Shown here one piece after another: positions 28,748-31,640 of a stretch of DNA of 57,079 nucleotides. The DNA comes from Actinomycetota bacterium (GTDB taxonomy: Bacteria > Actinomycetota > Acidimicrobiia > Acidimicrobiales > MedAcidi-G1): contig JACNKQ010000022.1 in assembly GCA_014381945.1 (NCBI GenBank), positions 1 through 57,079 of the forward strand. Reading direction: 5' to 3'. How positions within the stretch are numbered: position 1 is the stretch's first letter; each line of letters begins with the position of its first letter. Under the pieces are notes generated by a model. It was not told where the DNA came from. It ran no database searches and saw only the letters and a list, made by a program, of their open reading frames with translations. A program made the position numbers and the translations under genes.

Positions 28748-29100
28748 GAACCTGCTGTCCGGAGAACCGGGGGAGGCTCAGGCGGTCTTGTTCGATGTGC
28801 CGGGTCGGGGTCGAGTCCGGCGAGCGTGCCTGATGGCGTGGGCGCGGGGGTGCCTGATGGCCCGGGTCGTGGATGGCGTGGGTCGTGGCTGGCCCGGGTC
28901 CTGGATGGCGTGGCCCAGGCAGATCCTGCTCGGGCTGGCCCGGGTCCTGGATGGCGTGGCCCAGGCAGATCCTGCTCGGGCTGGCCCGGGTCCTGGATGG
29001 GCATGCCTCGGGCTGGCTTGGGCCATGGACGGGCATCGCTCGGGCGGTGTGCCCCGGGTTGTGGGTTGTGGCTCGGGCGGTGTGCCCCGGGCGGCCGTGG
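28748..29100. other. Gene-free repeat-rich stretch
   Basis: About 350 nt between the HAD promoter and the HNH gene hold no credible gene. The content is degenerate G-rich repeats built around CCCGGGTCCTGGATGG, plus a 33-nt duplication of a TCGGGCGGTGTGCCCCGGG block at about 29040 and 29073. All frames are open because of base composition, which explains the overlapping ORFs here. Confidence 0.7.
28887..29000. repeat. 46-bp tandem repeat downstream of the HNH gene
   Basis: Two exact 46-bp copies (28887-28932 and 28933-28978) and a partial third (28979-29000). Each begins GGCTGGCCCGGGTCCTGG. It is intergenic and the unit is not a multiple of three. Confidence 0.95.
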
Positions 29101-31107
29101 TCAGGCCGCCGGGGTTCTTCGGGTTCTTCGGTCGGGTTCGTGGGTGCGGCCGGCCGGGTCGGTGAACCCGATGCGGCCGTTGCCGATGCCCTGTTCGGAC
29201 AAAGGGTCGAGGTGTTTGAGGGTCCAGCCGCCGTCGTGGACGTGGTGATGGTGGTTCGAACACAGCAGGCACAGGTTCCATAGTTCGGTTTCTTCCCTGT
29301 CGAGCCAGTGGATGATGTGGTGGGCGTCGCACCATGACGGTGGCCGGTCACAACCCGGGAATATGCAGCCCCCGTCGCGCACTATCAAGGCTGTGCGTTG
29401 TGCGGGTGACACGGTGCGTTGTCGCCGTCCCATGTCCAGAACCTGCCCGTTGCCACCCATCACGACCGGCAGCACCCCGGCGTCACATGCCAGGCGCCTC
29501 AGCTGCGTTGGCGTCAGCGGTATCCCGTCGTCGGTTTCGCAACGACGTTTCCCCGACAAGACATCACACAAGACATCACACAAGACATCAGACAGGGCGT
29601 CAACGTTCGAGGGCAGGGCGTCGGCGGGTGGTGGCAGTTCCAGGGCTGCTGTGTTCGGATCGCCTGTCGGCTGCGGCAGGTGTTGGAGCCTGCGTGAGAT
29701 CCACCCATAGTCCACTACGCACACGATGTCGGCCCGGCCCCGAACCGGCACACCAACTTCAGAGCCGCCGCCGGTGGCGCCCGTAGAGGAACGCCGAGCC
29801 ATCTCAACCAATGCGTCGGCATTGCGTTGCACGACGCTGCGCAACTCACCCGCACCACCTGTGTGGCCCTTCCCGGCGGCTGCGGGGCGAGCCACACCCA
29901 CCCGGCCGTCCTCGTTGCGCCACAGGCCCTGTGAGATACGCCCCAACTCACCGGCTATAACCGCACCCGCATCAGGCGCCAGGTCAGCTTCGAAGCGCAT
30001 CATCCCATCCGACAAAGTGCGCCACTGCGCCCTACGCCGCCGATGCTGACGCCCCGCCAGACGCCGACCATCGACATCACCCAGCCGGTCACGCTGCCAC
30101 TCATCGACCACCGCCCGAAACCCGTCAGCCGACAACTCCCTGGCCGCCGCCCGCAAACCCGGATCGGCATCAGCGGCAACCCGATCCAGACGGTCCACCC
30201 CATAGGCCACAGCCTCGACATGACCCGGGGTGACCTCACCGGCCGCCAACGCCGCAGCCATCACCGGAGCCTCAGCCAACGCCTCCGCCACACGCACCGA
30301 CCGCCGCGCCTCACGCTGCGACACCCCCGACGCACGCACCAGCTCCGCCGACCGTTCCGCAGCCCCCACCAACGCCGAACCCACCGGCTGCCTCGCCGCT
30401 ACCAACCGCGCCACCAACGCATCATGCCGGGCCCTGGTCCGCCCCAGAGACGCAAACAGGTACTCGCGCTCCGACGCACTCAAGGCCCCGACCCCGACAT
30501 CCTCCAACGCCACACCCGCCAACTCGAACCGGTCAACAACCACCCGCACCTGCTCCGTGGCCACGTTCTTGCCAGGGGCTGAGACACCCGACCCGGCGCC
30601 GGTCCCCGAGCCCTCTCCGTTCGTCTCCGACGTTTCTCCCATGACCACATTCTTCACCCGGGGTGTGACAGTCGCCCCGGCGCCCACGCCGGCTCCAGAG
30701 CCGTTCGACACACGTACCTGTTCCATGCCCACATTCTTGCCATGGGGTGAGACAGCCGACCCGGCGCCGGTCCCCGAGCCCGACCCGGTCCCCGCCCCTG
30801 CGCCCTCTCCGTTCGTCTCCGACGTTTCTCCCATGACCACATTCTTCACCCGGGGTGTGACAGTCGCCCCGGCGCCCACGCCGGCTCCAGAGCCGTTCGA
30901 CACACGTACCTGTTCCATGCCCACATTCTTGCCATGGGGTGAGACAGCCGACCCGGCGCCGGTCCCCGAGCCCGACCCGGTCCCCGCCCCTGCGCCCTCT
31001 CCGTTCGTCTCCGACGTTTCTCCCATGACCACATTCTTCACCCGGGGTGTGACAGTCGTACCGGGAGTGTCCCCGATGGGTCCACACTGCCGAACTACCT
31101 TTTCCAC
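29101..31107 (-). CDS. DUF222/HNH endonuclease domain protein with repetitive N-terminus
   Basis: 668 aa as drawn. Residues of about 190-480 are a DUF222 (13E12-type) helical domain (e.g. ASGVSQREARRSVRVAEAL), and the C-terminus is an HNH nuclease: GCIFPGCDRPPSWCDAHH, then LWNLCLLCSNHHHHVH. These proteins are abundant in actinobacteria and suspected to be mobile or self-propagating. The start is uncertain: GTG 31107 gives a Gly-rich repeat N-terminus of about 188 residues, while GTG 30543 (GGAGCAGG upstream) gives the normal family length of about 480 and leaves the repeats untranslated. Residues DVLCDVLCDVL come from a 12-bp repeat. Confidence 0.78.
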   Translation of the reverse strand: MEKVVRQCGPIGDTPGTTVTPRVKNVVMGETSETNGEGAGAGTGSGSGTGAGSAVSPHGKNVGMEQVRVSNGSGAGVGAGATVTPRVKNVVMGETSETNGEGAGAGTGSGSGTGAGSAVSPHGKNVGMEQVRVSNGSGAGVGAGATVTPRVKNVVMGETSETNGEGSGTGAGSGVSAPGKNVATEQVRVVVDRFELAGVALEDVGVGALSASEREYLFASLGRTRARHDALVARLVAARQPVGSALVGAAERSAELVRASGVSQREARRSVRVAEALAEAPVMAAALAAGEVTPGHVEAVAYGVDRLDRVAADADPGLRAAARELSADGFRAVVDEWQRDRLGDVDGRRLAGRQHRRRRAQWRTLSDGMMRFEADLAPDAGAVIAGELGRISQGLWRNEDGRVGVARPAAAGKGHTGGAGELRSVVQRNADALVEMARRSSTGATGGGSEVGVPVRGRADIVCVVDYGWISRRLQHLPQPTGDPNTAALELPPPADALPSNVDALSDVLCDVLCDVLSGKRRCETDDGIPLTPTQLRRLACDAGVLPVVMGGNGQVLDMGRRQRTVSPAQRTALIVRDGGCIFPGCDRPPSWCDAHHIIHWLDREETELWNLCLLCSNHHHHVHDGGWTLKHLDPLSEQGIGNGRIGFTDPAGRTHEPDRRTRRTPAA
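29556..29591 (-). repeat. 12-bp tandem repeat in the HNH gene
   Basis: Three units of ACAAGACATCAC (last one ends CAG), encoding Asp-Val-Leu-Cys repeats between the DUF222 and HNH domains. Confidence 0.9.
30611..31059. repeat. 192-bp tandem repeat, about 2.3 copies
   Basis: Two full copies, 30640-30831 and 30832-31023, appear identical base for base, with partial copies on both sides. The unit is 64 codons. In the HNH frame each unit carries two related motifs, TPRVKNVVM and SPHGKNVGM, joined by Gly-Ser-Thr-rich linkers. Several other frames are also open across the array. Confidence 0.95.
31096..31101 (+). promoter_or_regulatory. -10 box of the DUF3499 gene, leaderless
   Basis: TACCTT lies 8 nt before ATG 31110 with no Shine-Dalgarno. 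It lies inside the longest possible HNH reading frame, which argues for a shorter HNH gene. Confidence 0.45.
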
Positions 31108-31109
31108 CC

Positions 31110-31640
31110 ATGCGCACCTACTGCATGCGATCGGCCTGTCGCGGCCATGCCGTGGCGCTCGTGATGATCAATGTGGCCGACAGCTCGTTCACCGTGCGCA
31201 ACCTTGCCGAGGTCGACGGGCCGGGGCGGGTGGTGCTGTGCGAGAAGCATCTCGACCGCCTGAGCGCCCCCATGGGCTGGTCGTTGCGTGACGAACGAAC
31301 GGGTGGTGATCTGATCGCGTTTCCCGGGCCGGGTACGCCGGAGTCCAGGTCGAAGGTGGCCGACCTGATCGAGGCACCGACCCCACGCCCGGTCGTTGCC
31401 GCCACCCACCCCCTTGCGGCAGCTCGGCTGGAGTGTGCGGCAGGACAGGCCTCCGAGTCCGACAGCGAGCCCGCCCCGGAACTTGTCCGGTCCACCCTTG
31501 GAATAGATCGCCATCCGGCCGGGCTTACGGGTGGAACGCCGTCTGGTTCCCTGGGTCCGGTCGTCGACCTGGATGACTTCGAGGGGTTCGTCGACGAGCA
31601 GTTGCCGCTCGAGCCCTTCGATCCGGATCCGTCGGCCTGA
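31110..31640 (+). CDS. DUF3499 family protein
   Basis: 176 aa. The N-terminal 70 residues match the actinobacterial DUF3499 pattern: a Cys pair in YCMRSACRGHA, then VADSSFTVRNLA, then LCEKHLDRLSAPMGWSL, probably a small metal-binding domain. The remaining 100 residues are proline-rich, acidic and probably disordered. The function of DUF3499 is unknown. It begins at ATG 31110, 2 nt from the longest HNH frame on the other strand. Confidence 0.8.
   Translation: MRTYCMRSACRGHAVALVMINVADSSFTVRNLAEVDGPGRVVLCEKHLDRLSAPMGWSLRDERTGGDLIAFPGPGTPESRSKVADLIEAPTPRPVVAATHPLAAARLECAAGQASESDSEPAPELVRSTLGIDRHPAGLTGGTPSGSLGPVVDLDDFEGFVDEQLPLEPFDPDPSA

Follow-up and report, generated by a model that had tools for sequence, protein, structure and literature searches.

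A repeat array in front of a DUF222 gene of a MedAcidi-G1 actinobacterium resembles tandem PafBC-type promoters with in-frame start codons

The window analyzed here (the whole 57,079-nt stretch of contig JACNKQ010000022.1 from a MedAcidi-G1 member of the Actinomycetota) contains a DUF222 gene preceded by a repeat array, which raises the question of whether the array is a 5' regulatory region of the gene or a variable N-terminus of its product, the two alternatives offered by the original prediction. The array itself is real. It occupies the minus strand from 31054 to 30556 and consists of six units with successive spacings of 108, 84, 108, 84 and 84 bp; TRF reported a period of 192 bp at 30587-31058 (2.5 copies, 97% matches), a repeat search of the window found half-units 84 and 108 bp apart, and the DNA motif, with up to three mismatches allowed, occurs six times in the window versus an average of 0.01 in shuffles. 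When translated, the array is rich in Gly (26%), Ser, Thr and Ala, and five of the six V-[ST]-P-x2-K-N-V motifs described earlier fit that formula, the proximal one being a degenerate copy that reads VSAPGKNV. The array is also open in several frames, as had been noted (three of six at 30543-31060). This is ordinary for the window, in which 93 of 566 tiles of equal length have at least three open frames, and multi-frame openness was discarded as a special sign.

On the minus strand, an open frame of 668 aa extends from GTG 31107 to 29101, and its furthest start lies, as predicted, 2 nt from the ATG of the divergent DUF3499 gene at 31110. The DUF222 domain of the encoded protein scored 76.7 bits against a Pfam cut-off of 24.4, whereas the HNH_2 (13.6 bits, cut-off 21) and HNH (10.8 bits, cut-off 21.4) models remained below their cut-offs and HNH-like residues of the C-terminus were recognized by eye only. 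Within the gene, a 12-bp repeat at 29556-29594 encodes DVLCDVLCDVLS. The idea that the DUF3499 promoter sits within the array was abandoned, since a conserved stretch just before DUF3499 falls outside the array and is kept in congeners that have no array. No LexA box (GAACN4GT[TA]C or AACN4GTTCG) was found on either strand at 29000-31400, and the repeat search, as regards a terminator or stem-loop role, gave one long-range inverted pair and nothing else.

Table 1. Coordinates of the array units and neighboring features in the window
Feature	Position	Strand	Description
DUF222 (13E12-type) gene, from the unit 5 ATG	29101..30642	-	Pfam; HNH-like C-terminus
Unit 6 (proximal), decayed	30556..30586	-	TGTCTCAG, -10 AAGAAC, ACG replacing ATG
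Unit 5	30640..30670	-	closest intact promoter-like unit; ATG 30642, 513 aa
Unit 4	30724..30754	-	motif as in unit 2; ATG 30726, 541 aa
Unit 3	30832..30862	-	motif as in unit 1; ATG 30834, 577 aa
Unit 2	30916..30946	-	TGTCTCAC-N8-AAGAAT-N6-ATG; ATG 30918, 605 aa
Unit 1 (distal)	31024..31054	-	TGTCACAC-N8-AAGAAT-N6-ATG; ATG 31026, 641 aa
Block absent from G001-G003	28749..31066 (approximate edges)	.	DUF222 gene, array and 46-bp repeat
Conserved DUF3499 upstream region	31067..31109	+	GTGTCCCCGAT...GAACTACC; outside the array; putative promoter role
DUF3499 gene, divergent	31110..31640	+	Pfam

The array is best read as DNA, with VTPxxKNV being a promoter translated in frame. At the DNA level the unit takes the form TGTCNCAC-N8-nAnnAT-N6-ATG, and conservation among 16 distinct units was 1.47, 1.31 and 1.36 bits at the three codon positions. 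Without a codon-position bias, conservation of the V-[ST]-P-x2-K-N-V peptide was rejected as the driver of the repeat. The candidate -35 block of the window units has TGTCA in three of six and TGTCT in the other three, and an 8-nt gap between the 9-mer and a -10 of the form nAnnnT is present in 20 of 22 units of the genus, the exceptions being the unit C43_2 and the proximal unit of the window. The window -10, AAGAAT, is missing the first T of TAnnnT; that full form is absent from all 22 tabulated units of the genus and is present in several DUF222 units of other genera. In five of the six units an ATG lies 6 nt past the putative -10, so that each of these could yield a leaderless mRNA.

The strict unit pattern matched 16 times in the own genome (reversed control, 0), either at its three assembled DUF222 genes or at contig ends. 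A looser pattern that does not require a start codon, TGTCACAC-N9-A-N3-T, gave 19 matches (reversed control, 0), and the genes downstream of those outside the DUF222 and contig-end loci encode RecA, an SMC_N/RecN-like protein, FtsK, LysM, SNase (its frame about 250 nt downstream of the motif), ribosomal protein S6 and VWA proteins; the motif-bearing LysM gene is divergent from LexA (LexA_DNA_bind, 89.4 bits). The frames after the motif at C1:96255 and C77 contained no Pfam family. The family has 47 strong recA matches; at 30 of these loci the upstream region was inspected, and TGTCA[CT]A[CG]-N8-TANNNT was present at 29, the thirtieth having just 130 bp of upstream sequence. The own genome encodes PafA (687 bits, above cut-off) and two adjacent WYL proteins, one of which is of the PafC type (HTH_PafC, 74 bits, cut-off 32), the other being taken as PafB by position.

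These features recall the LexA/RecA-independent promoter, for which the consensus tTGTCRgtg-8nt-TannnT is reported (PMC5656591), RecA-NDp being the motif through which PafBC acts (PMC6789036) and TGTCAC-10N-TA-3N-T its variant in M. tuberculosis (PMC8151990). The units of this genome and the mycobacterial RecA-NDp/P1 promoter of the PafBC response (PMC5656591, PMC6789036, PMC8151990) share the TGTC -35 block and its spacing from the -10, a position upstream of recA and other DNA-repair genes, and a genome with pafA and two WYL genes, one of the PafC type. The units differ in their core (TGTCNCACCCC), in the absence of the first T from the window -10, in the leaderless distance at DUF222 genes and in their tandem arrangement in the window, and their dependence on PafBC is putative. 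Because that first T is missing and three of six units carry TGTCT, we describe the units as PafBC-type by anatomy and company rather than as proven members of the class. Judged from sequence, their identity as promoters is well supported, and PafBC control, the actual start sites, translation and dosage effects are predicted.

Similar units are found at nine loci of the own genome. Units with an ATG number six at C49 (one decayed), two each at C43, C53 and C59, and one at C21, and loci with cut units comprise C52 (two plus a cut unit), C27 (three plus a cut unit), and C29 and C35 (one plus a cut unit each). Six of the nine (C27, C29, C35, C52, C53 and C59; L169-L174) lie at contig ends and point outward, and a DUF222 gene is assembled at just three; the outward-pointing units probably precede DUF222 genes that were lost from the assembly. 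A 51-aa frame at the C53 contig end had no family match. The copy number of the array in the window is uncertain, because the array contains an exact self-match of 257 bp at a shift of 192. It is possible, if rather unlikely, that assembly produced the six copies from an array that is in fact shorter or longer, an explanation compatible with tandem promoters and in keeping with both this exact match and the similar arrays at contig ends elsewhere in the assembly. Against it, the proximal unit is unlike the inner ones, the contig runs through the array, and C43, C53, C59 and other genomes have unit pairs too.

The same site was compared among congeners, where the DUF222 gene may be present, survive as a remnant or be absent. 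In G001, G002 and G003 the HAD and DUF3499 genes adjoin without a DUF222 gene, and the distal edge of the array lies at the approximate edge of the block missing from these genomes, with the conserved DUF3499 upstream stretch beyond it. G004 retains one unit followed by MEQARVVVDRFGLAGV, which matches TEQVRVVVDRFELAGV, the first DUF222 codons in the window, and has no gene body. At the corresponding site of G005, the contig begins 10 bp past a unit. This distribution makes mobility of the DUF222 gene plausible. A 46-bp direct repeat (28887-29000, 2.5 copies, 100% matches) lies between the DUF222 and HAD genes. The congeners have two to four pattern matches each, all unpaired, versus 18 in the own genome (reversed control, one in each of two congeners). 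Judged by eye, six of the congener matches (L250, L253, L255, L256, L257 and L258), all single PafBC-type units at leaderless spacing, precede a conserved, small, Cys-rich protein (81-88 aa), and one precedes a LysM-like protein.

Alternatively, the unit could mainly serve a DUF222/HNH mobile element, as its end or its recognition site, with arrays recording repeated insertion or cutting. The end of the missing block near the distal edge of the array, the nine unit-bearing loci with their concentration at contig ends, and the mobile-element characteristics reported for the 13E12 family (PMC5005354) are in line with such a role, but the motif precedes recA at 29 of 30 family loci, where DUF222 is not involved, and its orientation and distance from the start codon are those of a promoter. 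We consider this explanation improbable.

Upstream regions of DUF222 genes were surveyed across 17 related genomes (own, genus, family and order). This survey covered 73 genes with at least 250 bp of upstream sequence and omitted one skipped locus (L047), three that were too short (L109, L148 and L165) and eleven matches that were fragments, lay at contig edges or had no N-terminus. The motif was found within 450 bp upstream of 23 of the 73 genes, which are not independent because many are near-copies within a genome; the reversed control gave 0, the opposite strand 2 of 73, and the region upstream of an unrelated gene, DUF3499, 0 of 19. An RTG codon lies 5-7 nt past the -10 in 22 of these 23 genes, and in relatives the unit of each single-unit DUF222 gene supplies a start codon in frame, whose distance from the -10 is nearly constant. 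Among the 50 genes without the motif, 29 have a LexA-box-like site, so that one or the other is present at 52 of 73 (reversed control, 0). The strict LexA box, GAACN4GTTC, accounts for 11 of 73 and a pattern widened after the misses had been inspected for 30 of 73, with a background of 2 of 19 DUF3499 upstream regions (one of 20 loci was unusable). For the phylum, 29 single genes were sampled (57 genomes had a match) and two of them skipped; 21 of the remaining 27 carry either type of site and 8 of 27 both, with the PafBC pattern TGTC[AG]-N11-TANNNT and a reversed control of 0; a few sites lie more than 300 nt upstream. Together these counts suggest that the DUF222 family is under DNA-damage control family-wide.

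The spacing of the units bears on how promoters and reading frame coexist. Each distinct spacing of the own genome (69, 78, 84, 90, 108 and 108) is divisible by 3 (p=0.0014 if independent), a count from which the decayed second unit at C21, located 192 bp upstream beyond an intervening stop, was excluded. Paired units are rare: spacings of 51-81 nt were found in 3 of 298 genomes and spacings of 82-112 nt in 1 of 198, which is the own genome. A scan of the GTDB collection for units 54-84 nt apart found seven loci, six actinobacterial with spacings of 69 (four), 78 and 68, and one from Bacteroidia (L181) with a spacing of 56. A DUF222 domain scored above cut-off from the start codon of the second unit at four of the seven (L179, L180, L183 and L184), and the frames tested at L178 and L182 contained no DUF222. 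At L180, a DUF222 gene, the spacing of 68 is not a multiple of 3 and the upstream start meets a stop after 23 aa. Addition of the 69 of that actinobacterial group and the 68 of L180 makes 7 of 8 spacing types divisible by 3 (p=0.0026), or 8 of 9 (p=0.001) once L182 is counted as well; L181 was left out, its unit ATGs giving short frames of 26 and 2 aa. At L178, two units 69 nt apart (1158-1257) are followed by a frame with an RF-1 domain, and this pair is perhaps a remnant like that of G004.

Spacings in multiples of 3, a frame open throughout and a peptide rich in Gly, Ser, Thr and Ala would also be expected if the array were merely a translated, repetitive low-complexity N-terminal domain with a promoter further upstream and an incidental resemblance at the DNA level. 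The same motif is, however, found upstream of recA and other genes outside predicted coding regions, conservation of the unit has no codon-position bias, and the distance from -10 to ATG is near-constant in relatives, which together make this explanation quite improbable. Least probable of all is an untranslated array with the protein start at GTG 30543 or 30549: the former is in frame and, as predicted, would give a protein of usual size, with GGAG just upstream, but the ACG at 30558 in unit 6 corresponds to the ATG of the single unit remaining in G004, single-unit DUF222 genes of relatives carry a start codon in frame at the unit, and the window units are in frame with no intervening stop.

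Returning to tandem promoters with in-frame starts, both alternatives of the original prediction appear to hold in part and together, because five units are promoter-like and carry their own in-frame ATG. The proximal part of the array, at least, is probably translated. The ATG of unit 5 at 30642 is the likely main start, being the nearest intact unit start, since unit 6 has ACG and a -10 ending in C; GTG 30543 is a less likely start, given the G004 ATG and the in-frame ATGs of the units.

We therefore propose, with good though not complete confidence, that the array is a tandem set of PafBC/RecA-NDp-type DNA-damage promoters with leaderless in-frame ATGs that specify nested tails. Upon DNA damage, RNA polymerase directed by PafBC would initiate transcription at any one of the five units that are intact. 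Because the spacings are divisible by 3, every transcript would give the same DUF222/HNH-like protein, with nested N-terminal tails rich in Gly, Ser and Thr (total length 513-641 aa). The array may have been born when a single promoter-plus-start cassette, such as remains in G004, was duplicated, if the direction of change is as we suppose; the original start would then have decayed in the window, and translation now probably starts inside the array for that reason. Since most copies carry their own in-frame start, gain or loss of copies could alter both the strength of switch-on and the length of the tail. The length-tuned switch proposed earlier is still hypothetical but has gained a concrete element, and any benefit of copy number is conjectural. 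More tentatively, the unit may be a self-amplifying promoter-plus-start cassette that expands and contracts by recombination at many DUF222 loci within a single genome and so sets both the damage-induced nuclease dose and the tail length, acting as a repeat-tunable switch in the response to DNA damage.

In bacteria with tandem or repeat-number-dependent promoters, the copy number of an element could set expression. The window array differs from tandem promoters generally in that most copies carry their own in-frame start codon, so that the number of copies would determine the N-terminus of the protein as well. In the titles and abstract openings of the literature searched, no tandem PafBC promoter array was found. 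For M. tuberculosis, 13E12 (DUF222/HNH) genes are reported in the LexA regulon (PMC5005354, PMC4181829), and REP13E12 is paired with HNH and DUF222 (PMC10589994). The window gene belongs to the same family and would have in common with these genes a DNA-damage-linked control of a multi-copy nuclease-like family, but it has PafBC-type units in an array with nested starts in place of a LexA-box-like site. An odd peptide repeat thereby becomes a testable regulatory element, and DNA damage becomes the likely trigger for a little-studied nuclease-like family. The arrangement suggests that copies of a promoter carrying its own start can accumulate while the gene stays intact, provided that the spacing is a multiple of three. 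Because DUF222 genes of the phylum often carry PafBC-type or LexA-box-like sites (21/27), the purpose of DUF222 proteins becomes a question about DNA damage.
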